From the IMG/VR virus record IMGVR_UViG_3300032053_000176, positions 1 to 40,954 of that record: a stretch of 40,954 nt of DNA; one strand, 5' to 3'. Positions within the stretch are counted from its first letter, which is position 1; each line of letters begins with the position of its first letter. Under the pieces are notes generated by a model that saw only the letters and a program-made list of their open reading frames with translations, was not told where the DNA came from and searched no databases. Position numbers and translations under genes: made by a program. This document shows, piece by piece, positions 16,814-38,749 of this stretch. The DNA comes from a virus.

Positions 16814-17353
16814 TCAGGCCACATGTGCCCACTTCGATAGGTTGCACGGAGGGCAAGCTGCCTGACAGTTGTCTAGCAAGTCCGAGCCGCCTCTCGACAA
16901 CGGAACGATGTGGTCCTCGTGCCAGTTGTCGCGCCGGAGTTTGCGCCCGCACATCTGACACTTCCCGCCATCGCGCTCAAAGACCTCAGCACGAGAGTGG
17001 CCGTCCGTTTCCGCTCCGCGCTTACGTGCCCGGCGTATCCGCTCGTGCGAACTTCGCTCGATTGGATGAGTCTCGTACCAACGCTGCTTACTCTTACGGA
17101 CTCTACCTGGATGAGCCGCACGATAACGACAAGCACGTATCCGAGTCCATTTACGATATTTTTCAGGATTGGCTTCACGGTAACGCCGGTCGCTCTCGCT
17201 AACCCTATCTCGGTGCACTTTCTTGTATCGACGAGCACCTTCGCGTGCCTTGACCGCGCAGTACCAAGAACCACCGGCACGGCAGCGAGTGTTCTTGTTC
17301 CAGAGCATCGGTTCGTTATGACACTCACAGAGTGGACTCACCGCGAATACCAT
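16814..17353 (-). CDS. HNH endonuclease with N-terminal Cys-rich region
   Basis: A 179-residue protein. The HNH core is at 124-175: CQMC (132-135), H145-x-D147-H148, IVPLSRGGSD (149-158), and CPPCN (167-171), the zinc-bound beta-beta-alpha metal finger of phage HNH nucleases. The N-terminal 45 residues have C9, C11, C24 and C32, possibly a second zinc site. A long Arg-rich helical segment (46-115) would bind DNA. It overlaps the end of the GT4 gene by 16 bases and interrupts the glycan cassette, consistent with insertion as a mobile endonuclease. Confidence 0.85.
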   Translation of the reverse strand: MVFAVSPLCECHNEPMLWNKNTRCRAGGSWYCAVKAREGARRYKKVHRDRVSESDRRYREANPEKYRKWTRIRACRYRAAHPGRVRKSKQRWYETHPIERSSHERIRRARKRGAETDGHSRAEVFERDGGKCQMCGRKLRRDNWHEDHIVPLSRGGSDLLDNCQAACPPCNLSKWAHVA

Positions 17354-18417
17354 CCCTGGCGACTTCGCAGTTTCGTAAGGTCCGTGAAGTACGACTCGTA
17401 GTCGAAGCGAATCTTCTGCATGTCAAACTTCAGACCGTGTGCTCGACACGCAGCCGAGTCCAAGTTGTCAACATGCTGGGCTGCGCTCAGGAACTCCGCG
17501 TAGTTGTTACAACGGAATCCTGTGACTCCCTGTACAACTGTTTCAGGGAACGCGCCAAAGTTCGTTGTGATGACGGGCGTCCCACTAAGCGAGGCTTCGA
17601 TGACAACCTTGCCAAACATCTCCGTGTAGAGTGACGGGACGAAGACAGCACGAGCGCCAGACAGGATGCGAGCGCGCTCTTCGACACCAGCGAGTCCTCG
17701 ATAGTCAACGCCATGAGGCACGGCTCCTTGGCCCGCAACAACCAGTCTTATGCCCATGTCTTTGGATACCTGAACTGCGATGTCGATGCCCTTGTCCACA
17801 TTGAGGCGACCGATGAAGGCAAAGTAGTTTTCCTTGTCTTCGCGGTACGTGAAGTCATTCACATCGAAGAAATGCGGTATCATTCGGTCGAAGAACCTGC
17901 CACGAATAGCGTTCGCGCCTTGCTGTGGGCCGTACCAGAACCCATAGAGAGTGTTCATCCATGAGAACGATGGAAACACATGGTGCCCTTCGTGCAAGAT
18001 GCCCGCGTAGCCGCAGTAGGGTTCAACCATGCACAGTTCGGGGAACGTCGCAGCGATGGAACGCTCTGCCCAACCCGAAGACAGACACACAAAGTCGCCC
18101 TCCTGTGCTCGCTCGCGTATCGCTGAGGCCGTGCGCCCAAGGAAGAGCCGCCAGTACGGAGTGTTCTCATCGTACTTCGCTCGCAGGATAGTGTCCGGTC
18201 CGGTGACTCCGATAAGGTCAGCTTGTTCTTGACGCGTGATGCACGTAACAAGTTCATCACAAGCGGCTTCGTTCTCTTCTCCTGCGTATAGGATGACCGT
18301 GTGACCGAGTGACTTCATCATGTCACAGAACTTGCGGATGAGTTCAGTGAAGGCACAATTGCAGTATGCCCTGGTGGTCTGTGTGTGAGGCAACCCAACA
18401 ATATGGAAGGTGAACAT
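17338..18417 (-). CDS. Family-4-type glycosyltransferase (GT-B)
   Basis: A 359-residue protein. The N-terminal lobe is followed by a GT4 C-terminal domain: FAFIGRLNVDKGIDIAVQ (199-216), LVVAGQGAV (225-233), and the E266-x7-E274 motif in YTEMFGKVVIEASLSGTPVI, which binds the nucleotide-sugar donor. A retaining sugar transfer to a glycan or protein is expected. It is the first glycan gene after the tail-fibre genes, only 9 bases from the DNRLRE tail gene, and so is co-transcribed with virion proteins. Confidence 0.85.
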   Translation of the reverse strand: MFTFHIVGLPHTQTTRAYCNCAFTELIRKFCDMMKSLGHTVILYAGEENEAACDELVTCITRQEQADLIGVTGPDTILRAKYDENTPYWRLFLGRTASAIRERAQEGDFVCLSSGWAERSIAATFPELCMVEPYCGYAGILHEGHHVFPSFSWMNTLYGFWYGPQQGANAIRGRFFDRMIPHFFDVNDFTYREDKENYFAFIGRLNVDKGIDIAVQVSKDMGIRLVVAGQGAVPHGVDYRGLAGVEERARILSGARAVFVPSLYTEMFGKVVIEASLSGTPVITTNFGAFPETVVQGVTGFRCNNYAEFLSAAQHVDNLDSAACRAHGLKFDMQKIRFDYESYFTDLTKLRSRQGWYSR

Positions 18418-19406: not shown

Positions 19407-20006
19407 CTAGGGTCGGGTTAGGTCTACCTGGATGTTGGCCTTGGTCACTGCGCCAGACGTGGAGACCAGTCTGACCTCAATGTCGTGTCCGGCCGCGACA
19501 GCCTGGTTCTGGTCCGCTGCTGTGCTGTCCCAGGCGTTTGCGGTGCTGTTCGTGTGGTTGCCTGAGAGGAAGTCCGAGGTCTGGTCGAGTCGGGCATTGA
19601 CTACGATGTTCGTCCCGGCGTCGAAGTGGGAACGAATGGCCGTCACGGTGCAAGCGAACGGGGCTACGAACACCATGCGGTACCCGTTCGCGGGTGGCGC
19701 TCCTTCGAGGAGGGCACCGACAGAAAATACTCCTCCTACGCCTGTTGCTCCTGAGCCACCTGTACCGCCGCTTCCGCCGCTTCCGCCGCTTCCGCCGCTT
19801 CCGCCGCTTCCGCCGCTTCCACCCGAGCCGCCCGTTCCACCGCTCGGCCCGACGTTATAGTCAAGGTCTGACCAAACATCTACGCCATTACCTACCTTGA
19901 AACTTCCGCTGAGAAGCGTGACTGCAAGCTCGCCCTCGGCCAGTACAGGGTCATTGGCAATCCAGTTCGCCTCCGTATCTCGTCTGAGCTGAATCTGAAT
20001 CGCCAT
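19407..20006 (-). CDS. Tail-fibre protein with (Gly-Gly-Ser/Thr) repeat stalk
   Basis: ATG 20006 follows AAGGAG; an extra GTG just upstream is less likely. Residues 1-50 (IQIQLRRDTEANWIANDPVL, AEGELAVTLLSGSFKVGNG) match the N-terminal attachment domain of phage fibre proteins. Residues about 55-80 are a GGS/GGT repeat stalk encoded by a perfect 9-base tandem repeat. The C-terminal ~100 residues form a beta-rich head (receptor-binding candidate). Ser and Thr in the stalk are possible glycosylation sites. The protein probably lies at the tail tip and contacts the host. Confidence 0.75.
   Translation of the reverse strand: MAIQIQLRRDTEANWIANDPVLAEGELAVTLLSGSFKVGNGVDVWSDLDYNVGPSGGTGGSGGSGGSGGSGGSGGSGGSGGTGGSGATGVGGVFSVGALLEGAPPANGYRMVFVAPFACTVTAIRSHFDAGTNIVVNARLDQTSDFLSGNHTNSTANAWDSTAADQNQAVAAGHDIEVRLVSTSGAVTKANIQVDLTRP
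19765..19818. repeat. Perfect tandem 9-base repeat, six copies
   Basis: CCGCCGCTT is repeated six times without error and encodes (Gly-Gly-Ser)n on the - strand. Because each unit is 9 bases, slippage would change stalk length without breaking the frame. Confidence 0.9.
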
Positions 20007-20008
20007 CA

Positions 20009-20293
20009 CTAAGCTCCTTCATCCGCGTCTATCGGGTCAATGCCGCCGTAAACAGAACTTGCAATCCCACCGTCCAGATTTGCAAAAGCAGGGCCGCTAC
20101 CGCCCTCCTGAGCTAGGAGGTCCCAATGGTCAGTCGCGGTGGCCGGGTCATCGTCGTTTGCATCGGCCGCGACCGTGCAGACGTAACTTGACCCGGCGAA
20201 CTCGACTGCATCGAGCGGGTCGTATGTTTCTGCCGTATCCCAGGGGCCGCGCCAGACAAAGCCCGGCCCCATGAGGTTCAGTTCAAGAGGCAT
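20009..20293 (-). CDS. Small tail protein with carbohydrate-binding-like module
   Basis: A 94-residue protein. GPGFVWRGPWDTAETYDPLD and GSSYVCTVAADANDDDP, then HWDLLAQEGGSG, fit the WxxxxxYxxGDxVxxxGxxYxC pattern of chitin-binding-like (CBM5/12) modules common in phage tail fibres. It is about 65% identical by eye to the start of the next gene (20303-20800), so the two come from a duplication. A role in binding cell-surface sugar is likely. Confidence 0.7.
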   Translation of the reverse strand: MPLELNLMGPGFVWRGPWDTAETYDPLDAVEFAGSSYVCTVAADANDDDPATATDHWDLLAQEGGSGPAFANLDGGIASSVYGGIDPIDADEGA

Positions 20294-20302
20294 CTATCTC
20301 CT

Positions 20303-20800
20303 TTACACCCAAGTGCCTCCGGCTTTCTGGTACACGTCGCCTGTATCGTCGTCAAGGTAGAGGTCACCGTTGACGCCTACAAGGTCGTTCGGCACACCGC
20401 TGCCGGTGTACCAAACTGAGCCCGGTGTTCCTGGGTCACCTTCGCCACCGGAACCGCCCGAACCGCCTGTGCCACCCGAGCCGCCCGAGCCGCCTGAGCC
20501 GCCCGGCTCTCCGGGCTCACCCGGACCACCTGAACCGCCGGACCCGCCGCTTCCGCCGCTTCCGCCCGAGCCACCGCTGCCGCCGGTCCCGCCGGAGCCA
20601 CCACTGCCACCTTCCTCAGCTATGACTTCCCAGTGCTCAGGAGCGTTCTCAGGGTCGAGGTCGTTCGCGTCGGCCGCAAGGATGCAGACGTAGGATGAAC
20701 CGTTGAACGACGCAACGTCCCGAAGGGCGTATGTCTCAGCGGTATCCCAAGGTCCACGCCATGCAAAACCAGGACCGAGTATGTTGCTAATCAATGCCAT
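20303..20800 (-). CDS. Collagen-like/GGS-rich tail-fibre protein
   Basis: A 165-residue protein: residues 1-65 repeat the CBM-like module of the next gene (GPGFAWRGPWDTAETYALRD), residues about 66-128 are GGS/GGT/GEPGEPG repeats forming a flexible or collagen-like stalk, and the last ~40 residues (VWYTGSGVPNDLVGVNGDLY, LDDDTGDVYQKAGGTW) match the C-terminus of the 20805-21932 protein. The protein is a mosaic of modules shared with its neighbours. Confidence 0.75.
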   Translation of the reverse strand: MALISNILGPGFAWRGPWDTAETYALRDVASFNGSSYVCILAADANDLDPENAPEHWEVIAEEGGSGGSGGTGGSGGSGGSGGSGGSGGSGGPGEPGEPGGSGGSGGSGGTGGSGGSGGEGDPGTPGSVWYTGSGVPNDLVGVNGDLYLDDDTGDVYQKAGGTWV

Positions 20801-20804
20801 ATTC

Positions 20805-21932
20805 TCACCACCCTTCGCCAGTCTTCTTGTAGATGTTGCCTGTATCGTCGTCTAGGTAGTAGTCACCCACGTTGCCGAGGCCGGGGTCTGGCGCTCCGTG
20901 GCCGTCGTACCAAGTTGCGCCTGAAGTGCCCGCGTCCCCGGTGCGCGTAAAGCTAATAAAGACATCGTGATTCTGGGGGAACGGAACGCTCCCGCTTCCG
21001 GCGAGGAAGGCTACCGGGATGGTGTAGTAGTCATCGCCGTCCTCTACGCGGGTAAGCGCACCTGTAACCGCGTAGATGATGTAACTAAAGGAGTCATCAG
21101 TATCGGCGATGAGGATGTAGCCCTTGGTCGGACTTGTGGCGTCATCGAAAGTCTCAATCCATGTGCCGATGTCGGTGGCGTTCCCATCACCTGCTGCGAG
21201 ATGAAGCGTTGTTATCGTATCGTAGGTGTCGGCGAAGTCGATTCCGACCCAGCCGTACCAGGGAGATGTTTGTTGGTCCCAGTCGTTTATCCACCATGCC
21301 GCGACCGAGTTTCCGCCGAAGCCACCAACGGGACCGGCGGGACCGACAGGGCCTAGCCCGGCACTAATCTCGTTCGGGTAGCATGTCGCAACGACAGCAT
21401 CCCCAGTTACCAGCGACCCTAGTGTTCCCGGCTGTTGGACGGTCAGGTAGTACGGGTAAGTCGGGGGGCCGCCTCCACCCATCCCAATGATGACGAAGTC
21501 CCAGAGGACTTCCTGTTCGCCCTTGACAAGCCGCAGGGTTCCAAACTCAGGACTGGTCCCCCAGGTGTACGCCAGAATCCAGTATTCGATGCTGTTGCCG
21601 TTGGCATCGTGACAGGGCCGGTTGAAAGTGAGGACGTAGGGGTCCGTGTCGTCAAAGAAGACGTAGCCATCAGTGTCTTTGTAGGTCTCGTAGTCATCGT
21701 GGTTCGCGTATATCAGCGGGATATCAGTGCCGCCGCCTCCACCGCCCGAGCCACCCGTACCACCGGAGCCGCCCGTGCCGCCTGAACCACCTGTACCACC
21801 GGGTGGACCAACTGCACCCGCGCCCTCCGGGTCCATCCACCGCAGACGGCCCGGCCGTGTCGGGTCGGTGACGAGAATCTGTCCGTCCTTGCCTTTCGGC
21901 AAGAACAAATGTTCAACAGGGTCAGCGGTCAT
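20805..21932 (-). CDS. Large tail-fibre protein with Gly-rich stalk
   Basis: A 375-residue protein. Residues 1-35 (VEHLFLPKGKDGQILVTDPT, RPGRLRWMDP) look like a tail attachment segment. Residues about 40-68 are GGTGGSGG repeats. The middle (70-330) is beta-rich with many Tyr, Trp and Asp, probably a host-binding region. The C-terminal 40 residues (GATWYDGHGAPDPGLGNVGD, YYLDDDTGNIYKKTGEGW) equal the terminal module of the 20303 gene product. It belongs to the tail-tip adhesion set. Confidence 0.7.
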   Translation of the reverse strand: MTADPVEHLFLPKGKDGQILVTDPTRPGRLRWMDPEGAGAVGPPGGTGGSGGTGGSGGTGGSGGGGGGTDIPLIYANHDDYETYKDTDGYVFFDDTDPYVLTFNRPCHDANGNSIEYWILAYTWGTSPEFGTLRLVKGEQEVLWDFVIIGMGGGGPPTYPYYLTVQQPGTLGSLVTGDAVVATCYPNEISAGLGPVGPAGPVGGFGGNSVAAWWINDWDQQTSPWYGWVGIDFADTYDTITTLHLAAGDGNATDIGTWIETFDDATSPTKGYILIADTDDSFSYIIYAVTGALTRVEDGDDYYTIPVAFLAGSGSVPFPQNHDVFISFTRTGDAGTSGATWYDGHGAPDPGLGNVGDYYLDDDTGNIYKKTGEGW

Positions 21933-21950: not shown

Positions 21951-22814
21951 TCACATGTGTGTTCTGTTGGTGGACTGAATCACGGACCAGCCCTCGTCAA
22001 TCGGAATGTAGGCGATGCGCGGCCTCCAGGCCATCGTCTCGCTGCTGTTGCCCCAGTTCACACCCGCTCCCACATCTAGGCTCTGCCACTCCGAGATGAC
22101 GGATGAGCAGTGGTCATACTCGGCCTCGCCTAGTAGGTGCCACGAGAGCATGAGGCCGACGCGGATACGTTCGTTCGTCGGTGATGCTGGGGACAGTAGG
22201 AAACTCTCTGGCGTGAGAAGTACGTCATGCCCAGTTTGGTTACTCCAAGTAGTAGTTAGCGGGTCTACAGGGTTTTCTCCTGTACTCTCGTACGGTGGCG
22301 CTGTGTGCGGCCAGGTGATGTTTCGAAAGTCCCAAGTCAGGATTACATCGTCCTTCCAGCGGTAGGCAGCAGGGTCGAAGAACCCTGGACGGTCTTTGTA
22401 AAGGTCCATGCCGAGTGTGTGCCAAGGACTGGCCCAAGCCGGATTAGATTCAACCCCACCCTCCCACCAGATAGACCCACTCTCGCCCGCCTCTAGCGCG
22501 TAGGGTTCCCAGACACCAAGCATCACCGAATCATAGGTTTGATAGGTGCCTCGGACTCCCACGACGGTTCCGCTCTCGGTCCCATCACAAGTCTTCCCGA
22601 AAACCCCGTGGTAGTTCGCCCCAAGGCCCGCGTAGGCCCAGCCAGGTTGAACCGTTGATACGTTCGAGCCGTAGTAAAAGATGTACGCCTTATCACCCTC
22701 GTGGACATCAGCAGGGAAGGTTAGGGTGTGAACCCAAGAACCGTCTACCAACACAGCGATGTCGGCGTTCATATCGCCACCGCGCCAAGTTTTGAGGTAC
22801 TTGAACGTACTCAT
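21951..22814 (-). CDS. Tail protein, paralog family member 1
   Basis: A 287-residue protein and one of three adjacent paralogs (this gene, 22811-23548 and 23545-24441). Shared pattern: a start with a beta-strand, then VHEGDKAYIFYYGSN...QPGWAYAGLG (as in many phage tail proteins, GDxLIAxLxYG...PxGWxLLG), a middle with His, Asp and aromatic residues, and a C-terminal D-E-x-W-S/T-V motif (IDEGWSVIQS). This looks like a single all-beta domain of about 250 residues. ATGA overlap with the neighbour shows coupling. Tail-tip structure or receptor binding is likely. Confidence 0.65.
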   Translation of the reverse strand: MSTFKYLKTWRGGDMNADIAVLVDGSWVHTLTFPADVHEGDKAYIFYYGSNVSTVQPGWAYAGLGANYHGVFGKTCDGTESGTVVGVRGTYQTYDSVMLGVWEPYALEAGESGSIWWEGGVESNPAWASPWHTLGMDLYKDRPGFFDPAAYRWKDDVILTWDFRNITWPHTAPPYESTGENPVDPLTTTWSNQTGHDVLLTPESFLLSPASPTNERIRVGLMLSWHLLGEAEYDHCSSVISEWQSLDVGAGVNWGNSSETMAWRPRIAYIPIDEGWSVIQSTNRTHM

Positions 22815-23548
22815 CCGACGCTCCCCGAAGTGTGAAGGACGGTCCAGTCCTCATCAGGGAGAAAAGATTCTTCGAGCATCTCCGCGTCATTCAGCCAGAA
22901 TCCGCAAGTCGTTACACTCATGGTGTGATTGGCACTGTCCGTAACGGCCAGAGTAACTGGTTCGACGACCCCTGTCTTGTTCACCGCATCGACGAGAACA
23001 AGTCCCGATTGCTCGTTATATGGATGAAACCAACTCAGGTCCCCCCGGTCATTCCATTCTGCACTCGATAGAGGGTACGAGAGAGACACCGAGTCAAAGC
23101 AGTTGATGTGCGCGAAGACTCCAACGATAAGATGTGTGTCTCCGAGGTCGCCCGGGTCAAATGGTCCAACGATAATCGGGCCATAGCTGGCGTAGTGCAG
23201 GGACTCGCCCCAGCCCAATTTCCAGTCGATGTCATTGGGGTCTATGGCCGGGTGATAGCGGGCCATGCCCGCCCAGTACTGCGTATTTGGCTGCCCGTAC
23301 CCATACAGCATCTGAGCAACCGTTCCACCCTCCGTCCCGCTAGCGCGGCGTCCGTAGGTCCGCATCGAGTGGTAGCCCACGCTCTGACCCCCCAGGAGCG
23401 CCCAACCGGACGCGGGCGTGGAAGAGCCGTATACCAACGCTGCTATCAGGTAATCGCCATACTGCGTCTCGGCAGGATAGTCTACAGCGCAGTAACCACT
23501 ACCATCAGAGAACCCCCAAGACCACGCAATATCTCTGAACGCGCTCAT
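22811..23548 (-). CDS. Tail protein, paralog family member 2
   Basis: A 245-residue member of the paralog triplet. It has YGDYLIAALVYGSSTPASGW, then ALLGGQSVGYHSM, and ends PDEDWTVLHTS. Its sequence is the shortest and may be nearest the basic domain. Stop and start overlap with both neighbours (ATGA). Confidence 0.65.
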   Translation of the reverse strand: MSAFRDIAWSWGFSDGSGYCAVDYPAETQYGDYLIAALVYGSSTPASGWALLGGQSVGYHSMRTYGRRASGTEGGTVAQMLYGYGQPNTQYWAGMARYHPAIDPNDIDWKLGWGESLHYASYGPIIVGPFDPGDLGDTHLIVGVFAHINCFDSVSLSYPLSSAEWNDRGDLSWFHPYNEQSGLVLVDAVNKTGVVEPVTLAVTDSANHTMSVTTCGFWLNDAEMLEESFLPDEDWTVLHTSGSVG

Positions 23549-24441
23549 CGCGTCTCACCGCCCCACACAACGGACCAGTCTTCATCGCGGAGACCAAGCT
23601 GCACCCACAGTTGTCCGGCCACACCAGGCACACCACCTGCTACCGCATCAAGCCACGATGTCTGAGGAACATCGTGTCCGTAGGCGTAGTCCGGCCATCC
23701 AGGTAGGTGCCCCAACCACTCACCGTCGATGTCGTACGTTGCCGTCGTATCTGGTGAAACGTGCGCGTAATCCAGTTTGCTGACTATCGCCATCCCGAGC
23801 GAAGTTCCAACATCAGCATCAAAGTCCGGGTACTGGTCCTGGGCGGGGTCCTGCCGGAACCGGTTGACAACCGAATACGAGTCTGATGCGAGTAGGTCAC
23901 CCGCCCCACCTACGCTAAAGCCTGTAATCGACGGCGGTGTAGCACTAGCGTACGTGCCCCACCTATATGGGGGTACATTCTCTTGAAACGGTCCCTGCCA
24001 CGCATCCTCGCGAAAGTAAGCGAACTTGATTCCGGCTGCCAAGAGCCACTCGCCCTCCTCCCAGTCCCACTTTTCGTCGTCGCTTGCGATATTAGAATCG
24101 GGGTTAAGCCGAGAACTCAGGTCGATGGCAACGCATCCGATGATGTAGGCGAACGGGTCAGGTGCGTCATGGTCGAGCCAATACAGTGGGTTCAACTGCG
24201 TATCGACGGGATAACTTGTGCCGATTATCGGCTCTGTTGCTGTAAGGTGATGTATCCCCAAGGTGAATCCCGGGTCCCCCGTGTACAACTGTGGACTGAA
24301 GTAAACCAATAGGTCACCAACATGTGCCCCAGCCGGAATGTCCATAGCCATGCGCCGGTAACGGGTTTCAGCGGCACCGTAGCCAATATCGGTCGTCAGC
24401 CCGTACGAGATAGAACTGTCGTGGATGATTGATTCTGTCAT
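23545..24441 (-). CDS. Tail protein, paralog family member 3
   Basis: A 298-residue member of the paralog triplet, with VGDLLVYFSPQLYTGDPGFT, a central ITGFSVGGAGDLLASDSY, and a C-terminal RDEDWSVVWGG motif. Overlaps: its ATG with the stop of the upstream gene, and its stop with the start of member 2. Confidence 0.65.
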   Translation of the reverse strand: MTESIIHDSSISYGLTTDIGYGAAETRYRRMAMDIPAGAHVGDLLVYFSPQLYTGDPGFTLGIHHLTATEPIIGTSYPVDTQLNPLYWLDHDAPDPFAYIIGCVAIDLSSRLNPDSNIASDDEKWDWEEGEWLLAAGIKFAYFREDAWQGPFQENVPPYRWGTYASATPPSITGFSVGGAGDLLASDSYSVVNRFRQDPAQDQYPDFDADVGTSLGMAIVSKLDYAHVSPDTTATYDIDGEWLGHLPGWPDYAYGHDVPQTSWLDAVAGGVPGVAGQLWVQLGLRDEDWSVVWGGETR

Positions 24442-25304
24442 CGCGGTTTATCTGACTGAAGTGTGACGTAGACGTACGCGACCATCTTGCCAGATGCACC
24501 GTGCAGCGCTGTACACTCGATTGTCAGGTCATCGACATCGACAACATCGTCGTTGCTGCCGGTGCCGGTCGGGCTTGTGCAGGCAACGATACCGCTGTCA
24601 AGTTCATCCGCATAGACGGTCACTGCCTGGAACGTCGTTCCGTTGAGCGCGAACGTGAAGGTCGCATCGTTGTTGGGTTCACCACCATCGTCGAGCACTA
24701 CGCGGACCGCTTGAATCGTGAACTGCCAGTCCTTGCCGTTGTCGTCGAACGGGATGCTGGTCAAACCCTCTGTGATGTCCGAGCACTCGTAGCGCAGAAC
24801 ACGCTCGGGAGGCGCATTGTCCTTCGAGATGCGCGGGCGCTTTCCCAAGATGTCGGCTATCTGCCACCGTGAGTGCGAGGGTTTGTACACGTACAGCACC
24901 ATCTCAGTCTGTCCGCTTCCTATGTTGCGCGCGCCGACAGGAAGCCACGCGTAGAAGTGGTGCGGAACAAGACAGGTGGTCGTGTCATCCTCCAGCACAT
25001 CCTGTACTTCCGCGTAGCGCTGAATCACGCGCGGGTAGACGCGGATGGTAGTGCCGCCGACCGTGTAGTCGTGCGTGAGTCCTGTTACGCCGGTCAACGT
25101 TAGGGCACTGTAGTCGAGACCCGTGTACGTAATCAGGTCGCGCTGGTGCGCGTGGTCACGTATCTGCGCCTGCCCGCCATCCTCATCGAAGTTGTCGATG
25201 TCCTCCATGTACACCGTATCAGCACCGATGGAGACAGCCGATGCGAGCACGCTTCCCTCGTACTCGGTAAACACGTTCAGGACGTAGCCTTTACCCGAGA
25301 GCAT
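24438..25304 (-). CDS. Minor tail protein (288 residues)
   Basis: The gene starts at ATG 25304, overlapping the stop of the tail hub gene. It is beta-rich. A middle part (RWQIADILGKRPRISKDNAP) and the C-terminus (ECTALHGASGKMVAYVYVTL) are conserved-looking, and the text is typical of phage minor tail subunits. The start (MLSGKGYVLNVFTEYEGSVL) lacks a signal peptide. It probably sits in the tail-tip complex between the hub and the paralog triplet. Confidence 0.6.
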   Translation of the reverse strand: MLSGKGYVLNVFTEYEGSVLASAVSIGADTVYMEDIDNFDEDGGQAQIRDHAHQRDLITYTGLDYSALTLTGVTGLTHDYTVGGTTIRVYPRVIQRYAEVQDVLEDDTTTCLVPHHFYAWLPVGARNIGSGQTEMVLYVYKPSHSRWQIADILGKRPRISKDNAPPERVLRYECSDITEGLTSIPFDDNGKDWQFTIQAVRVVLDDGGEPNNDATFTFALNGTTFQAVTVYADELDSGIVACTSPTGTGSNDDVVDVDDLTIECTALHGASGKMVAYVYVTLQSDKPR

Positions 25305-28111
25305 TACGCACCCTTCCTAGCCCTGATAGCCTTGCTCGGCCAGTTACTCGGGTCGTGGCCGCCACCCTTGTTGCCCTTGCCGCCCTTGTCGGTTGCCCCA
25401 GGAGACCCGCCTCCGGGGCGGTGGTGCGTTGAGCCGGTGCCCTTGTGGTGGACTGGCCGTGGGAGCTTCGTCTTCGTGATGACGTGGACCGGTGCGTTGT
25501 AACCGAGCGTCATCAACTGGTTCGGCACGAGTGGCAGCGTCCACTTCTGTGGGATGAGGACGGGATTGTGAATCGTGGTTAGTCCATCTAGCTCGTCGAG
25601 GTACACGCCGACCGCATCGTACAGTTCAAGGTGTGGGAACGGCAGACAGTCAAGCTGCAACTGCTCCTGCTGGAGCAGCGTCTGAGAGAGTGTCTGCTTG
25701 CCAATCTTCACCGCCTGTTCCTTGCTGATGTGACCGGGGTTGCTGACGAACTCAGTCATCGCGCGCGGGATGTCGTTGTGAGCGAGGTCCAGTTCGCTCG
25801 CGGGTTCGTCCTGCTGCTCGTACACGACCGCGATGACCGCCGTAGCCGCGCCCGACGCTGAGTGCCAAGGCATGTCAACCACAACTTGGTTGCGCCATGT
25901 GGTTTGCTCGAACCCGACCGTGGGCAGCGTCGCGATGCACGAGGGCGGTGCCTTCGATGTCGGATGGTTACTAATCTGCGCGCGCACGCGGACGGTGTTG
26001 TCCTCGCTTCTCTCCGGCATCTTTCTGAGTCGGCAGAAACCCTCAGTGTCGAAGAACAGGTTATAGCCATAACCCTTCGTCCACTGTTGGAGGTAGGGCC
26101 ACAGTCCGTTCTGTTTGATGTACGCACGCGCGATGTTACGTTTGTCCACCACATGTGTGTCGGGTGTCTTGCCGAGACGAAACTTCGTCTCACCGTACTG
26201 ACGAAGCAGTCCCTCGACGAACTCGTCCAGCGTCTGTCCCGCGTTCGGGATAACAGCGAGTGCGGCCGTGCGGTCGGACCATTCGAGGAAGTTCGGCAGG
26301 TTGTACAACATCTCCTTGCTCTGCGCCTCGATGTGCAGCGTGCCCCGCGTCTCATCCCCCGCAGCATGCGTCATGGGACCGTAGAACACAGGCACCTTCA
26401 CCCATGTGTTCTCGGTTCCGTTGGCAGGCATGCCTGACGGGAAGTTCCAGCCCTTCGGTCGATGCACGAAGACCTTGTAGTAGACCTGAATGTAGTTCGC
26501 CGGGTGGAACGGCCCCTTGTCTGTCCCCGCACCCGGGCTCTTGCCCCAGACGTGCTCGTTGAAATCACCCGGGTTCTCTACAGCCATGTCGAGCGAGAGC
26601 GAACGCGGGATGGCCTGTGTGATATCCACATCCACCTGTCCGCTGATAATCGCGTACCTGTTAGGGTCGAGACGCCCGATGTCTTCCTCATTCTGATTGA
26701 GAATATGAACCTCAATCGACATCAGGTGCGAGTCGAAGAGCATGTTGTAGTAGTCGCCTTTCATCTCCTCGCCCGCGCGCGGAAGGTAGTGGAAGATGTC
26801 GAACGACTCGATGGCCGGGTCCGGCGGTTTGCGTGTCTCATGGTGGTCGCCGTCGGGATGTCCGCCGCCGCCCTTGCCACCACCGCCACCGCCGTGGCCG
26901 CCGTTAGCTCCCTGCTCGGCAGAATCCGGGCTGACTCCGAAGTAGTTCGGCCACAGCATCTCCGACATAGCCACGCCGCCGAGCCCAGGTATCGACTCTG
27001 GGAAGACTGTCTGGTCACCCTGCCCGCTCGACCCGGTGTACTGCCACGCAGCAAACGGTTTCTTCTCGGCAGGACCCTTCCTGACCTCGCCCGCCTTGCT
27101 CGCGTCCCAGTCAATCCACCACACGGCATCCACCGACTTCCACGTGGGGTACGTCGCCCACTGCTGCTCGGGGAGGGTCATAACGATGATGGGCAGGTGT
27201 GGTATGCGCCACCGCAGTTGCTCGCAGTACGCCATAGCCTGACCCTGCGTAATCAGTACCTCGCTCCAACGAACCACGAGGAAGTTCGGCGTCGCGTGAT
27301 TCTTGACCACGTTCCACATCGCGTCCGCCTGGTCGGGGAAGAATCCACCGTCGTGCGTCGCCATCCCGAGCGCACCGAACGGGAGCCGCTTGTTGCTCCC
27401 GAACAGGTCCTTCACGATGTCAACGTGGTCGCCGTAGAGTGGGTCTTCGTCGATGCCGTCGGTCGCCTTGATGCACACTACGTCAATGACCTTGGATGCG
27501 GCCTTGAAATCGTTGGCCGTGTAGAGCCCGTCGGAGTCGGAGATGTTCGGCATGAGCGCGGGCTTCTTCCAGTGGAACGTGTAGCCGGTCTCATCGTGGC
27601 CGTCATGCGTGCCGCCGTTGCCGTTCCCTTCCGACAGTAGTCCGTCCAGAAAGCCCTGCGAGAATGTGTCGTTCTTCATCGCTTGTGCGGCCTCACCAAA
27701 GCTGGCAGGAGGCAGTTTGCACAACTGACGCACCTTCGAGTGCGCCGTGTAACCGTCCCACCCTGCCGGGCAGTAATCGTCACCGGAGAACTTGTCATTG
27801 TGTCCGAGCCGCCAGCGGACCGCTTCGGCAATCCACTCAATCCAATCGGCATGCTGTGGGAAGGAAGGATTCTGCACCGCCATCAGCAGATGTGCGCCCT
27901 CGTGCAGAATCACGCCGGGGTCAGTAGGTGGGCTGAAGTAGTTCTGGTTCATCCATATCTGACCGCTGATTGTGTAGGCTACCTCATTGACACCATCAAA
28001 GACATGCCACTCCGGGCTTGCTTGGTCCACGCCGAGCAAGCGCGCCATCGCTTGACCCTTCACGTCCCAGACGTCCTGCGCCCAGTCCTTGATGTCTTGC
28101 TCGGTCGTCAT
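25304..28111 (-). CDS. Multi-domain tail hub/lysin: HExxH metallopeptidase-like, GH25-like muramidase, Gly-rich linker, tail hub
   Basis: A 935-residue protein. Residues about 60-105 hold HEGAH (70-74) and WIAEAVRW (93-100), the zinc-ligand pattern of gluzincin-like peptidases, closest to the plant/bacterial basic secretory protein (BSP) family. Residues about 195-395 resemble a GH25 lysozyme barrel: VVCIKATDGIDEDPLYGDHV (211-230) and FAAWQYTGSS (353-362), though the usual DxE catalytic motif is replaced by VVRWSE (279-284). A Gly/His linker spans about 400-430. Residues about 435-880 are a beta-rich tail-hub (Tal-like) region, followed by a His/Gly-rich end. Such tail-associated lysins open the cell wall during DNA entry. 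Confidence 0.8.
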   Translation of the reverse strand: MTTEQDIKDWAQDVWDVKGQAMARLLGVDQASPEWHVFDGVNEVAYTISGQIWMNQNYFSPPTDPGVILHEGAHLLMAVQNPSFPQHADWIEWIAEAVRWRLGHNDKFSGDDYCPAGWDGYTAHSKVRQLCKLPPASFGEAAQAMKNDTFSQGFLDGLLSEGNGNGGTHDGHDETGYTFHWKKPALMPNISDSDGLYTANDFKAASKVIDVVCIKATDGIDEDPLYGDHVDIVKDLFGSNKRLPFGALGMATHDGGFFPDQADAMWNVVKNHATPNFLVVRWSEVLITQGQAMAYCEQLRWRIPHLPIIVMTLPEQQWATYPTWKSVDAVWWIDWDASKAGEVRKGPAEKKPFAAWQYTGSSGQGDQTVFPESIPGLGGVAMSEMLWPNYFGVSPDSAEQGANGGHGGGGGGKGGGGHPDGDHHETRKPPDPAIESFDIFHYLPRAGEEMKGDYYNMLFDSHLMSIEVHILNQNEEDIGRLDPNRYAIISGQVDVDITQAIPRSLSLDMAVENPGDFNEHVWGKSPGAGTDKGPFHPANYIQVYYKVFVHRPKGWNFPSGMPANGTENTWVKVPVFYGPMTHAAGDETRGTLHIEAQSKEMLYNLPNFLEWSDRTAALAVIPNAGQTLDEFVEGLLRQYGETKFRLGKTPDTHVVDKRNIARAYIKQNGLWPYLQQWTKGYGYNLFFDTEGFCRLRKMPERSEDNTVRVRAQISNHPTSKAPPSCIATLPTVGFEQTTWRNQVVVDMPWHSASGAATAVIAVVYEQQDEPASELDLAHNDIPRAMTEFVSNPGHISKEQAVKIGKQTLSQTLLQQEQLQLDCLPFPHLELYDAVGVYLDELDGLTTIHNPVLIPQKWTLPLVPNQLMTLGYNAPVHVITKTKLPRPVHHKGTGSTHHRPGGGSPGATDKGGKGNKGGGHDPSNWPSKAIRARKGA

Positions 28112-30018
28112 TACTGGTCGGCTTCCTCATGCGAGATAGGAACGTCGAAGTCACCGGTCTGCCACCAGTCGAACCCGATGACGTAGACGGGCTCACCGTG
28201 CGACCACTTCGACTGCGTGAAGTTCGCGATGATGACGGGGTAGCTGTTGCTCCCCCACATCAGACGTAGGTGCGGAGTCGTCGAGAACTTGCCCACGACG
28301 GTCTGCATGTCGCCCAGATGGTCGATAGCGTCGCCCTCATCGTCCCCGATAAGCTGCCCATCCACGTGGCCGTACATGCCGCGCGGAAGTCCCTCGATGC
28401 GGACCGGGTCGCGCCGGTTGACGAGATAGAACGTCTCGCCGTCACGCGACAGCGTTTCGTCCATTGCCATGTCACCGTAAATGGGAATGATTATCTGGTC
28501 GGGCATGTAGATGAGGTAGATGCCGAGCACCGTGAACACGACTGTCTCCGTGTTGCTCGGGTGTGACCAGCCCGTACCGGGGCTGCCATCTCCGACTATC
28601 TTGGCCTTCACCTGAATGTCGTACGTCTCGTTCGGGCGCGCTCCGTACCACGTCCACGAGTAGTGCCCCTCGCCGTCATAGCAGTCGGGGCCGTCAAGCG
28701 TGTTGATTAGCTCACCATCGACGATGATGCCCCACTTGTCGGGGCACTCCAGCCTGTACCACGCTAGGTCGATACCCGCGCCCACCACATCGGCCGACAA
28801 CGTGTCCGGTGGGTCCACCGTGTCATCGTTGACGAAGTAGAACGTGCGCGTGTCCTTCGGCGTGTCGGCATCTTCGGGCGAGCGCCCGTAATCGTGGGAG
28901 TCCTTGCCGTCGATGACGAATACCTCGACGCGGTACTGAGAGCCATTCTTCTTGATGAACCCTTCGTCCGGCGTCCAGTCCTTGACTGCGGTCTTCTCCC
29001 AGCCGGTGGTAGCCAGCCGGGTCCATCCGCCCGCGCCGTCGGCGAGTGAGAGAACCGCTTTGCGCATCGTCTGGTCATTGCCGTCGCCGCCGGGCGTGAA
29101 GGTCCACACGATAGGCGGCGTCGTGTCGTTCACAGGGTCGTCATCTGTGACGGGCGCTGTGATTAGGACCGTGCCCGCGCTGTCGTAGCCGAACTCCGCA
29201 GTGTCGGACCAGGGTGAGTCGGTGCCGACGTCGGCCCACACCTTCACGCGCCACAACCGCTTGCCCTCGTCGGGAATCGGGTCGAACGTCGGGTCTGTGG
29301 CTGCCGCTAGGTCCCACATCCCTTTCTCGTTATCTTGCTGGAGCGAGTCGTACTCCGGGCTGGCAAACTCGGGGTCCCCAGCGCCCGTAACCTGCACGCG
29401 GCTGTGTGCCTGCGTTCCATCGAGAGGCTTGTGACCCATGTGCCACCGTAGAACTGGCTGGCTATCGTAGATGGCGATGCCGTTCGGCGTCAGGTCAGTC
29501 GGTGCGTCGGGTGCGCCCGCGTACACAAGGTGCAACTGCGGACGGTCACCCTTATCGTTACACTCGGACGAGTGCAGTTTGTGTGTGTCGTTGTCGCCGC
29601 TTATCTCAAGGCGGATGCCGTAATACTTGTCACCGTCCGCAACATCCTCAAGCATATCCGAGACGTCAATCTCATCCTTGCCGCCCACGCCATCGCCCGA
29701 ACAGGATGCCTGGTTGGTGCCGCTCGCGTTGGGCTGGTTGTTCCAGCTAACGTCGCCTTCGTTCCAGGTCTGAGAGATACGCTTCGCCGTGATAGTGGTT
29801 CCGGCAAAGTCGCTGGACTTCTCGTGAAGCTCTAGCGTGGCCGTAAGAATCGTGTAACGCCGGATGTGTTTGGGCAGCGGAAAGAACAGCAGCGCGTACT
29901 GTGTCTCATTGGTCTTACCGCACAACGACAAGGTGCGCTGCCCGCCGGAGTTCTGCTTCGGGTTGTCTTCGTCGATGCACGAGTCAATCTTGGCCGTGGC
30001 GTGGAAGTTACGTGACAT
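28111..30018 (-). CDS. Large tail protein: DNRLRE domain, fibronectin-like repeats, distal tail region
   Basis: A 635-residue protein. Residues about 1-170 form a DNRLRE-like beta-sandwich (for example KTNETQYALLFFPLPKHIRR, KRISQTWNEGDVSWNNQPNA). Residues about 175-480 read as Fn3-like repeats (APDAPTDLTPNGIAIYDSQP and following). The C-terminal 150 residues (DETLSRDGETFYLVNRRDPV, GSNSYPVIIANFTQSKWSHG) may be the distal-tail anchor. Its position directly after the tape measure gene fits a Dit-like role. The stop overlaps the hub gene start. Confidence 0.7.
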   Translation of the reverse strand: MSRNFHATAKIDSCIDEDNPKQNSGGQRTLSLCGKTNETQYALLFFPLPKHIRRYTILTATLELHEKSSDFAGTTITAKRISQTWNEGDVSWNNQPNASGTNQASCSGDGVGGKDEIDVSDMLEDVADGDKYYGIRLEISGDNDTHKLHSSECNDKGDRPQLHLVYAGAPDAPTDLTPNGIAIYDSQPVLRWHMGHKPLDGTQAHSRVQVTGAGDPEFASPEYDSLQQDNEKGMWDLAAATDPTFDPIPDEGKRLWRVKVWADVGTDSPWSDTAEFGYDSAGTVLITAPVTDDDPVNDTTPPIVWTFTPGGDGNDQTMRKAVLSLADGAGGWTRLATTGWEKTAVKDWTPDEGFIKKNGSQYRVEVFVIDGKDSHDYGRSPEDADTPKDTRTFYFVNDDTVDPPDTLSADVVGAGIDLAWYRLECPDKWGIIVDGELINTLDGPDCYDGEGHYSWTWYGARPNETYDIQVKAKIVGDGSPGTGWSHPSNTETVVFTVLGIYLIYMPDQIIIPIYGDMAMDETLSRDGETFYLVNRRDPVRIEGLPRGMYGHVDGQLIGDDEGDAIDHLGDMQTVVGKFSTTPHLRLMWGSNSYPVIIANFTQSKWSHGEPVYVIGFDWWQTGDFDVPISHEEADQ

Positions 30019-33000
30019 GGTATCTGCGCCTCACTCGTCTGTGCATCCTCTGTTGTGACTCGCTGTAGGTCTGTCGCTCCGCACTCTCATCGCGCGCCAG
30101 ATAGCGGATGTAGCCTGTGCCCTCGTCCCAGTTCGTAATCGTCAACTCAGCCTCCCCAGACTGTTCGCCCATGCTCTCGACGACCGCGCTGTTCGGGACG
30201 ATGCGGCCAGCCTGGTCGGGTGTGAACAACTCCGGCCCGCGTTCGCCGACGAGATACGGCGTACCCGCACTGACAGGGCCACCGAGAGCGCGACCTGCAA
30301 CCGGCGTGATGTCAACATTGAAATCGAGCCCGGTGAGGACATTCAGGGACGCCGCGAGTTTGCCCACGTCGGCGTTCGCCATCACGAGCCCCGAACTGTC
30401 ATACGGAATCTTGATGCCGATTGCGTTCAGGTTCTCCAGCGCGCCCTCTGCCTCTGCCGACCGCTCGACGATGTCAAGTAGCACCGCAGTGGGGCCTACC
30501 GCCGCAGCCTTCGCGGTCCTGTCCTGCGCGGTCTGCCACTTCTTTGCGTCCGCAATCATCTTGTCGAACGACTTCCCAGACATGCCTGCGATTTGGTCTA
30601 GCGTCTCCGAGGTCATCTGCCCGGTGGCTTGCAGGTACGCGTACATCTGCTGCTCGTTCTCGGTGCCCGAGCGCCGTAGGATGGTCCGCGTGTCCCTCGC
30701 CCTTGCCTGGATGTCCTTGATGTACTTCGCGTTGTCGTGGAGGATTATCGCGGTCGTGTTCTTCGACTTCTTCGCAAGGTTGTCGAACTCGCCCTCCACC
30801 GTGGCTACCGCCGCACCAACACCCGCCGCCCAAGACTTGATAGACTGCTCGGTTGACATGATGAGGTCGAGGGCTGCCTTGCCTTTCTTGTCGCTCTCTG
30901 CCAGCGTGGTCATCACGTTGGAGAACTGGATGGCTAGCTGCTCGCCGGTTGTACCGACGATGCCAGCAACGGTGTCGAACTCGTTGCCGAGGCTGCGAAT
31001 CTCGATGCCGGATGCGCGGGCCGCGTTCTGTACTAGCAGTTCGGCCGCCACGTAGTCACCGGCCGAGACCGCAGCGAGTATCTGCGCCCGGTTCAGCCCC
31101 TCCGTGCTGCCCGTCAGGGTAACGTACTGCCCAACGAGTCCCGCCAGGGACTGCTTCGTGACGTCGGAGATGCCCGGCATCAGCGCCATCGTGCCGAGGA
31201 GCATGCCCATCGACTTCTCCCCGAACAGGAGGGACAGCCCCGTCGTGTCTGCTACCTGTCCCGCGTTGGTCTGCGCCTTTATCCAGGCGTTCAGCGCAAG
31301 GGTCGCATTGTCGGCCACACCGACCTGCTTCCCCATGATGACGACGAGGTCAGTCGTGTGACTGTTTATCATGTCGAGGGTCTTGTAGTATTCGTCATAC
31401 CACACCTGTGCAGGGGACGGCTTGCCGAATATGGAGGCGAACCCCTCTCTGATTTGGTCAAAGAAGCTCGGTTGCAGCGCCTTGTTGTACTTGTTCTGAA
31501 TCTTGACCAGCGCGTCCGTGGCCTCGCCCGTCTTTGCGATTTGCTGTTCGGCCTGCTTGTACACGGCCGCAGCCTCCGCGACCGCCGCGTTGCTTGCATC
31601 CCAGCCCTGCTTAGTCAGCCACGCGCCCGCTGCAACGACCGCGAGCGCCGTGACGAGCGGCCAACTCGCGGCAATCCATCCCTTCAGCGCCGCCGCCGAG
31701 GACAGGGTGTAGATGCGCAGCGTTTCCATCCCGCCGCTGAACCCTCCCACGGCGAAGGAGGCCGAGATTGACTCTGCGGCCACCGCGCTCAAGCCAGGGA
31801 TGACGCCAAATAGTGCCTTCAGTAGTGCGCCTCCGAGCAGTATCATCTTGCCAGACACGAGGTTCCAGAGCACCATCGCGCCCGCTGCGACGCCGATGGC
31901 TTCCACGGCTACCATCATTGGACCCGGAATCGCCTTGATGACGTTGTCGAGCAGCCACGTGCCGACCGACAGTACCTTGCCGACAGCAATCTCTAGCTGG
32001 TTGAATCGGTTCTTCAGGTCCGCCAACGGCGTCAACGCTGCCTTGGCACCGCCCGCGAACCGCTCATTCGTCAGGTTGATTATCTCCTGAGTCGCCGCCT
32101 CTTTCTTACCGGCGGCGATAAGGGCGTTGATGTGCTGAACCTGCAAGAGTGTCAGCGCGCCAAACTTCTGAAGCATAGGAAGCGCGCGTGCGGGGTCATT
32201 CAGGATGAGCGGCCCGAGGCTTCGCGTCATCAGCGCGAGCGGCTTACCCGTCGCAGCCGCCATGTTGATGAGACCCTCCGTCAATCCCTCAATCGCTTTC
32301 TGTGCGCCTGCTGGCCCGAGCGCGGTAAGCGTTGTCTGTCCGAGGCTTACAAGGTTCGCCTGTAGCTTCAGGATGTCGCCCTCGGTCTTGCCCGACTCAA
32401 GGGAGAACGCCTGCGCGGAGTCTATCAAGGGCTGGAACAGCGCGGGCATCTCCATCTGTGTTAGGCCGTACTGTATCCGCTGCGTGTTTGACTCGATGGT
32501 CTCGTACGCACTCAGGGTCTGCTTGCCGAAGTAGGCCGCGAATACGCCTCCTAGAACCGTTCCGAGGGTGCCGAACCGCTGCACTACCATAGGTGTCGCG
32601 CCCAACAGCCCGAAGGAGTTGCCTAGACCCTGACCCATGCCCTGTCCCGCCGCAGTCCCCGCGTCTTCTCCCGCAGATTCCGAATCGCTGGACAGGCTGT
32701 CGGACATATCCGCCATCGCCGTGTCGATGGCATCGGTGACCGACTCGGAGACAGCATCGCCGAACGCGGCTGCAAGGATGTTGCCGCCCTCTTCCCCGGC
32801 CAGTCCGGCGGCACTCTCTACCGCATCCACCAGGCTAGAATCGAGAGTGCCCTGCACCGTAGAACTGAAGTTCGACTCGAATGATTGCGCCGCAGTCTCG
32901 CCACCGGCTTGCCCGGCCGCGTCTCCGGCACTCGCCACCGATTCCTCCATGCCGGAAGTTAGGTCGGAACCGCTTCCCACTGCGGAACTGAAGGTATCAT

Positions 33001-33139
33001 TGAACGCCCGACCTGCAACCTCACCACCGGTTTGCCCAGCACCTTCGGCAGCCTGAGACAGCCCTTCATCGAGCAGGTCGTCAAACCCCTCCATGTTGGG
33101 AATCAAGTCTACAAAGACATCACCAACGCCTGATGCCAT
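30008..33139 (-). CDS. Tail tape measure protein
   Basis: A 1043-residue protein. The N-terminal 180 residues are Ala/Gly/Ser/Glu-rich repeats (GQTGGEVAGRAFNDTFSSAV, GQAGGETAAQSFESNFSSTV), followed by a tape-measure core with long helices and a hydrophobic stretch near 400-510 (VAVEAIGVAAGAMVLWNLVS, SWPLVTALAVVAAGAWLT). The C-terminal AGTPYLVGERGPELFTP is a frequent signature of phage tape measures. It sets tail length and probably leaves the tail during DNA ejection. Its start follows the frameshifted chaperone gene directly. Confidence 0.9.
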   Translation of the reverse strand: MASGVGDVFVDLIPNMEGFDDLLDEGLSQAAEGAGQTGGEVAGRAFNDTFSSAVGSGSDLTSGMEESVASAGDAAGQAGGETAAQSFESNFSSTVQGTLDSSLVDAVESAAGLAGEEGGNILAAAFGDAVSESVTDAIDTAMADMSDSLSSDSESAGEDAGTAAGQGMGQGLGNSFGLLGATPMVVQRFGTLGTVLGGVFAAYFGKQTLSAYETIESNTQRIQYGLTQMEMPALFQPLIDSAQAFSLESGKTEGDILKLQANLVSLGQTTLTALGPAGAQKAIEGLTEGLINMAAATGKPLALMTRSLGPLILNDPARALPMLQKFGALTLLQVQHINALIAAGKKEAATQEIINLTNERFAGGAKAALTPLADLKNRFNQLEIAVGKVLSVGTWLLDNVIKAIPGPMMVAVEAIGVAAGAMVLWNLVSGKMILLGGALLKALFGVIPGLSAVAAESISASFAVGGFSGGMETLRIYTLSSAAALKGWIAASWPLVTALAVVAAGAWLTKQGWDASNAAVAEAAAVYKQAEQQIAKTGEATDALVKIQNKYNKALQPSFFDQIREGFASIFGKPSPAQVWYDEYYKTLDMINSHTTDLVVIMGKQVGVADNATLALNAWIKAQTNAGQVADTTGLSLLFGEKSMGMLLGTMALMPGISDVTKQSLAGLVGQYVTLTGSTEGLNRAQILAAVSAGDYVAAELLVQNAARASGIEIRSLGNEFDTVAGIVGTTGEQLAIQFSNVMTTLAESDKKGKAALDLIMSTEQSIKSWAAGVGAAVATVEGEFDNLAKKSKNTTAIILHDNAKYIKDIQARARDTRTILRRSGTENEQQMYAYLQATGQMTSETLDQIAGMSGKSFDKMIADAKKWQTAQDRTAKAAAVGPTAVLLDIVERSAEAEGALENLNAIGIKIPYDSSGLVMANADVGKLAASLNVLTGLDFNVDITPVAGRALGGPVSAGTPYLVGERGPELFTPDQAGRIVPNSAVVESMGEQSGEAELTITNWDEGTGYIRYLARDESAERQTYSESQQRMHRRVRRRYHVT

Positions 33140-33884
33140 TACTTCTTCGCCTTACCTCTCTTGATGCGGATACCATCTACCGCCATGAACGCTTCTATCT
33201 CTGCCTCAGAGGACATGACCGGCTTGTCTTTTTCCTTGCCTATGTCCCTCGGTCGCGGGATGTGGATTGGCTTGCGGACGCGCGAGTTCTTCTCTCCGTA
33301 CACCTGCATGAGAATGACGTTCGTCACGTCTGCGACCTCTGCAATCTGTGCGAGCAACTCCTGCGTAGTACTCCAGCCGAGCCCCGCCCCCAGCGGGTCC
33401 TGCGAGCGCGCGAGCGGTGAGTCAAGCGGCAACCACTTGACTAGGTTCCACAGCCGTCGTGCGCCCCACGGGTTTGGACCGTAGAGCAGGGTTCGCAAGT
33501 CTAGCTGGTAGCTTTGGCGGAACGCCGCCTCGGCCGCGCCGTAGTGCTCTTCACAGGCGTCGGCGAGGCTGAGGATTCCCCCAGTTCCATCCCGTACTCG
33601 GCCGGGATACCTGACACGACCGCAGCAAGGTCCTGAATCGAAGGACCGTTTGTCATGAACTCGGCGAACTCCCTGCCGAGCATCGCCTCAAGCGCGCCCA
33701 GCAGCGCGTCGGTGATGGCATCGCCGTCTTTCTTCTTCGTCGCCTCAGCAAGTGACTTCAGGTGCCGGATAGCCTCCACCGGCAGCTCGACTGGTAGTTC
33801 ATACTCTTTATCCCCAATCCGCAGTACCGGGTGAATCCCTGCGGTCTCACGCCGTGCAGCGCGGGCTTCATCTAGGTCAATCAT
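33139..33884 (-). CDS. Tail assembly chaperone, long form made by programmed -1 frameshift
   Basis: The short chaperone (33501-33884) continues after a -1 shift at GGGGGAA (33576-33582), giving about 248 residues. After the shift the read-through is ILSLADACEEHYGAAEAAFR, QSYQLDLRTLLYG, which fits the family pattern of tail assembly chaperone T regions and joins smoothly to LWNLVKWLPLDSPLARS in the downstream frame. The C-terminal extension ends in a Lys-rich tail. Such long forms bind the tape measure protein and the major tail protein during tail assembly. Confidence 0.85.
33501..33884 (-). CDS. Tail assembly chaperone, short form (gpG-like)
   Basis: A 127-residue product starting at ATG 33884, which overlaps the LAGLIDADG gene by 8 bases. 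It is mostly helical (EAIRHLKSLAEATKKKDGDA, ITDALLGALEAMLGREFAEF). The C-terminal basic tail (PRRRSAKATS) is read only without frameshifting. The location between the major tail gene and the tape measure, together with the frameshift site, identifies it as the phage lambda gpG analogue. Confidence 0.85.
   Translation of the reverse strand: MIDLDEARAARRETAGIHPVLRIGDKEYELPVELPVEAIRHLKSLAEATKKKDGDAITDALLGALEAMLGREFAEFMTNGPSIQDLAAVVSGIPAEYGMELGESSASPTPVKSTTARPRRRSAKATS
33576..33582 (-). other. -1 frameshift slippery heptamer GGGGGAA
   Basis: In the mRNA (- strand) the heptamer is positioned as G GGG GAA relative to the short-form frame, so both decoding tRNAs can slip one base back. The frame reached after the shift is the one of the downstream 33139-33498 extension. 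Confidence 0.85.
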
Positions 33885-34422
33885 GACTCTGTATCTCCCT
33901 TCGTGGCGCGCGCCGTCCTCTTGAGACTGCGCGCCCTATCTCACTTCGCCGCTCCGGCGAAGTGTCTGCCCAACGAATCTTCTGTGCGACTGACCGTCGA
34001 GCAAAGTCCTCTTCAGATGTAAGTGGTTGCGACACCTGAGAAAGAACCTCTGTTGCTCTTGTACGCCTCCGTTCACCAAGCCAGGGCCACAACATCACAA
34101 TCGCAGCTTGTACTTTCTCGAAGGTGTGGAGATTCCAACTCCACATCGCAAGACCCGCAACGTGCGTGTGTGGGCCATTCATACAGCCTCCCATCACATT
34201 CTGGAATCGCTGAATAAGGTCTCTATCCGTCAGACCCATCGACATCTCAGCGTGTTGGCGGTGGTTCGCGCGTTTCACCAGCACAATAGAGCCTTCACCA
34301 TCAAAGAGACCGGCGGCCCAGGCAAGTTCTTCACGTGTTCTCAATCTCTCTCCCCCTGATAAAGGAACAGCCCCAACACTGCCGCTTGTATTGCGGCCAT
34401 TGGGGTTGGTGTCTCCCTGCAC
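33877..34422 (-). CDS. Free-standing LAGLIDADG homing endonuclease
   Basis: GTG 34422 is chosen because AGGGAG lies 6-7 bases before it; a TTG at 34458 has no ribosome site. The 181-residue protein has one LAGLIDADG motif (WAAGLFDGEGSI, 35-46), so it would act as a dimer. Further support is a helical body (MGLTDRDLIQRFQNVMGG). The C-terminal ARRSVAQKIRWADTSPERRS, then EIGRAVSRGRRA, is a basic DNA-recognition tail. It sits between the major tail gene and the chaperone gene and is translationally coupled to the latter. Confidence 0.8.
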   Translation of the reverse strand: MQGDTNPNGRNTSGSVGAVPLSGGERLRTREELAWAAGLFDGEGSIVLVKRANHRQHAEMSMGLTDRDLIQRFQNVMGGCMNGPHTHVAGLAMWSWNLHTFEKVQAAIVMLWPWLGERRRTRATEVLSQVSQPLTSEEDFARRSVAQKIRWADTSPERRSEIGRAVSRGRRAPRREIQSHD

Positions 34423-34442
34423 TGCTGTCTCCCTACTCTCGG

Positions 34443-34485
34443 GGGCGGGGGCTCCCAACCCCTTAGACGGCCGGAAGCCCCGCCC
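34443..34485 (-). terminator. Stem-loop between the major tail gene and the LAGLIDADG gene
   Basis: GGGCGGGGGCT (34443-34453) pairs with AGCCCCGCCC (34476-34485) with one bulged base and a 22-base loop. It falls just after the major tail protein stop. No T-run follows, so it may attenuate or stabilise rather than end transcription. Confidence 0.4.
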
Positions 34486-38548: not shown

Positions 38549-38676
38549 GTTGGTAAGACGACCTGTCCCGTTTCGACAGCCCTAGCCGTATCCCACTCCC
38601 TCTACGGGCTCAGGTGGGGCGGGGTCGCCGTTTCGACGTGCTACCAATCACGTCTCCTGCGACCGGTGAACCTTCG

Positions 38677-38749
38677 GGTGGCGGACGGGATTTGCACCCG
38701 CTTCGACGCGGGCCACAACCGCGCGCTCCGCTACACGAGCATCCGTCAC
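38677..38749 (-). tRNA. tRNA-His (GTG)
   Basis: On the - strand the acceptor arms GTGACGG/CCGCCAC pair with one A-C mismatch. The D-arm is GCTC...GAGC. The anticodon stem CGCGG/CCGCG is perfect with loop TTGTGGC, giving anticodon GTG (His). The T-stem GCGGG/CCCGT has loop TGCAAAT in place of the usual TTC. The discriminator is C. CCA is not encoded. Confidence 0.75.

Follow-up and report, generated by a model that had tools for sequence, protein, structure and literature searches.

In the classical Tal protein of phage tails, the lysin module lies C-terminal to the hub, and most tail lysins described so far carry M23, NlpC/P60, lysozyme or transglycosylase modules. Tal-type tail lysins, such as Tal2009 of phage Tuc2009 and the enterococcal representatives, combine a hub-position protein with a wall-active module of the M23 or NlpC/P60 type (PMC9662197, PMC10194240). 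More than one lysin domain may also reside in a single tail protein, as in gp13 of phage phi29, with its lysozyme-like and endopeptidase domains (PMC9863714), and in several enterococcal tail proteins (PMC10194240); a pairing of lytic modules in a single tail protein, called unusual in the initial annotation, would accordingly not be without precedent. Carbohydrate-binding modules are known in Dit proteins and tail lysins (PMC9128512).

The window analysed here, i.e. the whole stretch of 40,954 bases, corresponds to one whole IMG/VR virus record. It is a siphophage fragment, with two tyrosine integrases (6120-6905, plus strand; 10442-11275, minus strand), an HK97-type capsid, which shows only about 25-28% identity to its best matches in the phage collection, and a minus-strand tail operon. 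The gene of interest (25304-28111, minus strand) is an open frame with an ATG start that encodes a protein of 935 amino acids, referred to below as P0001, while stops interrupt the plus strand over this interval. Residues 454-839 of P0001 match the phrog_1887 tail protein family (E 6.3e-10), and its gene is the second one after the tape measure gene (30008-33139). The intervening gene (28111-30018, minus strand) encodes the Dit-position tail protein, which has a CBM96 module (PF24517, E 1.8e-18) and an Ig module, Rha78A-N (PF25788, E 1.8e-9). The order capsid, adaptor, terminator, major tail, tape measure, Dit-position protein and P0001 is comparable with that of the siphophage Teagster. The succession from the major tail gene through the chaperones, the tape measure and the Dit-position CBM96-Ig protein to P0001 thus identifies the latter, as judged from its sequence and setting, as the tail hub (Tal-position protein) of the phage, with the family profile and the gene order in agreement. 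The initial annotation of the protein as a tail hub is therefore upheld by its phrog_1887 match and its place behind the tape measure and Dit-position genes.

The hub module itself (25472-26824, minus strand; residues about 430-880, including the part matching phrog_1887) is preceded by about 400 extra residues making up two modules, and the boundary between these and the hub is marked by a glycine-rich linker, GGHGGGGGGKGGGGHPDGDHHE (26828-26914, minus strand; residues about 400-428). The extra modules are thus N-terminal to the hub, in contrast to the C-terminal lysin of the classical Tal. Other phrog_1887 proteins share the hub module (residues 454-839 of P0001), but most matches from bacterial genomes, specifically of Desulfobacterota, are frames of 360-436 amino acids that lack the N-terminal 400 residues of P0001, which makes the bare hub the usual form. 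An N-terminal extension of such hubs is nevertheless not unique, since the phrog_1887 search also retrieved two prophage ORFs, each longer than 1,000 amino acids, with about 300 non-hub residues ahead of the hub.

The second of the two modules (26987-27559, minus strand; residues about 185-375), hereafter module 2, appears as a degenerate GH25-type barrel in hhalign, AlphaFold and Foldseek analyses. hhalign aligned it with GH25 over 173 columns (probability 96%, E 3.9e-9), with a score of 60.0 compared to a best value of 34.8 among 100 shuffles preserving the IKATDG motif. A HMMER profile built from 34 viral GH25 domains gave 23.4 bits, compared to at most 17.6 in 1000 shuffles keeping the motif IKATDG...DP, and 9.5 against a best of 7.0 in shuffles when the motif was masked. 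These controls matter because the GH25 set had been collected with a motif derived from P0001, which makes the HMMER test partly circular. Pfam, including its PF01183 model, and NCBIfam report no GH25 match for the module; when a profile of nine sequences, P0001 included, was compared with PDB, all significant matches were GH25 enzymes. The AlphaFold model obtained from an 18-row alignment has a pLDDT of 73.6 and a pTM of 0.74; across residues 185-314, the majority of 10-residue blocks have mean values of 82-96. Foldseek searches with this model retrieved phage lysozymes from BFVD and, from PDB, 17 matches at E<0.001, each of which is a GH25 enzyme. Because the model is driven by a GH25 alignment, it supports the fold without being an independent proof.

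In overall fold and colinear profile, module 2 agrees with GH25 (PF01183). It shares with GH25 muramidases such as Cellosyl (1jfx), Cpl-1, PlyB and the phiSM101 endolysin the barrel, a colinear alignment and the IKATDG and WQYT motifs, at about 16-28% identity to the aligned viral GH25 domains, and we therefore read residues 185-375 from sequence and model as a divergent GH25-type fold. The GH25-like barrel initially placed at residues 195-395 thus proves real, with similarity exceeding that of motif-keeping shuffles, although slightly displaced.

What sets module 2 apart from these enzymes, besides its location in a tail hub, is that N, R and S occupy the places of the catalytic D, D and E. 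The three catalytic columns of the viral GH25 set read D in 34/34, D in 34/34 and E in 33/34 sequences. In P0001 the first catalytic Asp is replaced by N189 (27545-27547, minus strand; placed by the two alignments A1 and A3 and by hhalign), and the catalytic D-x-E by R281-W-S283-E284 (27260-27271, minus strand), a part of the stretch VVRWSE (residues 279-284); four separate alignments, including those by HMMER and hhalign, agree on R281 and S283. Moreover, two near-invariant tyrosine columns of GH25 read L248 and V310. One conserved active-site acid, D366 (27014-27016, minus strand), is apparently kept in an invariant column, in a region where the alignment is less sure, and another acidic residue, E284, is located one residue beyond the lost catalytic Glu. 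It is conceivable that a barrel using E284 and D366 as alternative acids would still be a muramidase, but the concordant Arg and Ser in the D-x-E positions, the Asn in place of the first Asp and the loss of the two tyrosines make this highly improbable; a shift by one residue on a beta strand points the side chain away, and a rescue of catalysis by E284 is accordingly possible but unlikely. Module 2 is thus very probably not a muramidase. The altered D-x-E and the possible inactivity had both been noticed in the initial annotation, and to these can be added the missing first Asp, bringing the loss to at least three conserved acids. With the pocket aromatics gone as well, the barrel may no longer bind peptidoglycan at all. 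It follows that the original notion of two cell-wall-degrading modules does not hold: as the second one is very probably inactive, P0001 would have no more than one degrading module, alongside one that binds.

The N-terminal module 1 (27617-28111, minus strand; residues 1-165) is a candidate gluzincin-type zinc metallopeptidase domain, as suggested by the order of its motifs. An edge-strand-like stretch, AYTISGQIWMNQNYF (27935-27979, minus strand; residues 45-59), is followed by HEGAH (27890-27904, minus strand; residues 70-74), with the putative zinc ligands H70 and H74 and the putative general base E71, and by WIEWIAEAVRW (27812-27844, minus strand; residues 90-100), which includes the WIAEAVRW (residues 93-100) singled out initially. 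In M1 proteins the third zinc ligand is the Glu of E-G-[ILF]-A, a motif that we also saw in Peptidase_MA_2 examples and in one BSP-like example. The corresponding residue of P0001 would be E92, in E92-W-I-A, separated from HEGAH by 17 residues, the alternative being E96 (W-I-A-E). Module 1 thus resembles the Peptidase_MA_2, M1 and BSP gluzincins (PF13485, PF04450) in having HExxH followed 17-21 residues on by an E-x-hydrophobic-A helix and preceded by an edge-strand-like stretch, the resemblance of AYTISGQIWMNQNYF to the strand that precedes HExxH in 30 Peptidase_MA_2 proteins having been noted by eye and post hoc. It differs from them in a Trp replacing the Gly of E-G-x-A and in the lack of a significant profile match.

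For a statistical evaluation we used the motif HExxH-x(12-35)-E-x-[ILFVM]-A, defined from the M1, Peptidase_MA_2 and BSP families, and left out an earlier three-part motif that had been derived post hoc from P0001. The motif, present in P0001 as H70, E71, H74 and E92, is rarer than chance, occurring in 53/300,000 shuffles of the module 1 domain (1.8e-4) and in one of 4,495 unrelated ORF-like stretches, compared to 24 of 30 genuine Peptidase_MA_2 proteins, and the HExxH of P0001 is the sole one in the window that satisfies it. All in all, we consider it more likely than not that module 1 is a zinc peptidase. The initial proposal of a BSP-like zinc peptidase consequently holds as regards the zinc-peptidase-type motif (HEGAH and the E-x-I-A helix), but the assignment to BSP does not, the family model (PF04450) giving no match to P0001 even at E<=10.

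The main competing reading is that HEGAH and the EWIAE helix are a chance occurrence or a relic and that both N-terminal modules are adhesive or structural, in which case P0001 would be an ordinary decorated hub. It can draw on the fact that module 1 has no relative in Pfam, NCBIfam or PDB, that its HMMER score against the 30 Peptidase_MA_2 proteins (0.6 bits) falls within the range of shuffles, and that hhalign aligns it with Peptidase_MA_2 (PF13485) over the HExxH helix only (17 columns, probability 19%), i.e. no profile similarity to PF13485 was found beyond the motif; a single-sequence AlphaFold prediction of residues 1-400 has a pLDDT of 38, too low for use. Since, however, shuffling of the domain would produce the full motif in about 2 of 10,000 cases, and since the motif is unique in the window and has the edge-strand-like stretch correctly placed before HExxH, we hold this reading to be somewhat unlikely. 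Provided that the peptidase is real, its substrate might be a surface protein (an S-layer protein or the like) rather than peptidoglycan peptides, given that the similar gluzincins of the M1 and MA_2 families cleave proteins or peptides. Phage wall endopeptidases, for their part, are typically M23 or NlpC/P60 enzymes (PMC10194240, PMC9662197), but the barrel of a wall-enzyme type adjoining the peptidase argues against a surface protein, which we regard as an unlikely target. Some phage structural proteases act in virion assembly, and module 1 might by analogy process the hub or the tape measure instead of acting on the host; this seems improbable for a peptidase at the far N-terminus, beside a wall-enzyme-type fold, in a hub protein, where entry lysins are usually found.

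We give an even chance to the reading of P0001 as a hub preceded by a dead-barrel module for adhesion or spacing and by an N-terminal gluzincin-type zinc peptidase, with the glycine-rich linker as a hinge. On docking of the tail tip, the hinge would let the two N-terminal modules reach the host surface, where the barrel might serve as an adhesion or spacer module (with cell-wall glycan or another ligand) and the HEGAH domain, with H70, H74 and probably E92 as ligands and E71 as the base, would clip wall peptides or surface proteins. The Dit-position neighbour also has a carbohydrate-binding module, which fits with a sugar-rich surface. A bolder version, in which a new family of gluzincin-type peptidases and a muramidase fold turned surface anchor sit together N-terminal to the hub, the anchor holding the wall and the peptidase opening it, can be put forward only tentatively.

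The nearest parallel is gp13 of the phi29 tail knob, which, like P0001, unites a fold of the sugar-cleaving type and a metallopeptidase-type part in one tail-tip protein. The phi29 protein, however, is a podophage knob protein and its peptidase is an active endopeptidase of the M23 type, i.e. of a different fold class, whereas in P0001 a siphophage hub carries a gluzincin-type motif together with a dead GH25 barrel. As tail proteins with two lytic domains have been described before, the novelty of P0001 is in its parts (the gluzincin-type motif, the dead GH25 barrel and their N-terminal placement), not in the principle. Should a gluzincin-type peptidase really be present in the hub, phage entry would gain an unrelated class of peptidases; a muramidase fold retained after the loss of its active site would be a clean example from nature of how an entry enzyme turns into a binding part.

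Neither P0001 nor its modules have close relatives detectable by tblastn in phages and plasmids, none were found by back-translated scans of viral contigs and genomes, and for the N-terminal half in particular the phage, plasmid, viral-contig and genome collections yielded zero relatives. DNA-pattern matches to HEGxH..WxxEA in viral contigs all turned out to be out of frame or unrelated when inspected, and a match in Sphingomonas phage Carli was dismissed for its location among replication genes. The phage as such is an orphan, since scans with its capsid and major tail proteins found no related phages. The sole match from an integrase scan, an integrase of Desulfobulbaceae, has 28% identity, which does not amount to a host assignment.

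Several other genes of the record deserve mention. Downstream of the hub gene are two adjoining genes (21951-23548, minus strand) for proteins of 245-287 amino acids without a family match, which look like distant paralogues (29-38% over a part of their length); the C-terminus of the protein encoded at 23545-24441 is similar to this pair by eye. Further on (19407-21932, minus strand), four fibre-like proteins are encoded in a row; three contain long glycine-serine (collagen-like) repeats, and some of the four share termini at 53-62% identity. A gene cluster of the surface-polysaccharide type (11886-18417, minus strand) comprises GT2-like transferases, a polysaccharide pyruvyl transferase, a cytidylyltransferase-like protein, a hexapeptide transferase, a short-chain dehydrogenase and a GT4 glycosyltransferase with 38% identity to a protein of cyanophage S-CAM7, and may serve virion decoration or a change of the host envelope. 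A 390-amino-acid protein matching CDP-glycerol glycerophosphotransferase (37254-38426, minus strand; PF04464, E 8e-6) is encoded within the head-tail operon, an odd location for an enzyme of the teichoic-acid type, and adjoins a cluster of five tRNA genes (His, Phe, Tyr, Gly and Trp; 38676-39059, minus strand) in the interval between the capsid and head-tail adaptor genes. HNH endonuclease genes occur at 33877-34458 and 39068-39568 (minus strand), both intercalated in the structural operon, and at 8146-8643 (plus strand). The plus strand further encodes a small protein with RTX calcium-binding nonapeptide repeats (8910-9317; PF00353) and an AAA ATPase (3149-4006) with PADLOC matches to IetA, the best at E 1e-11.
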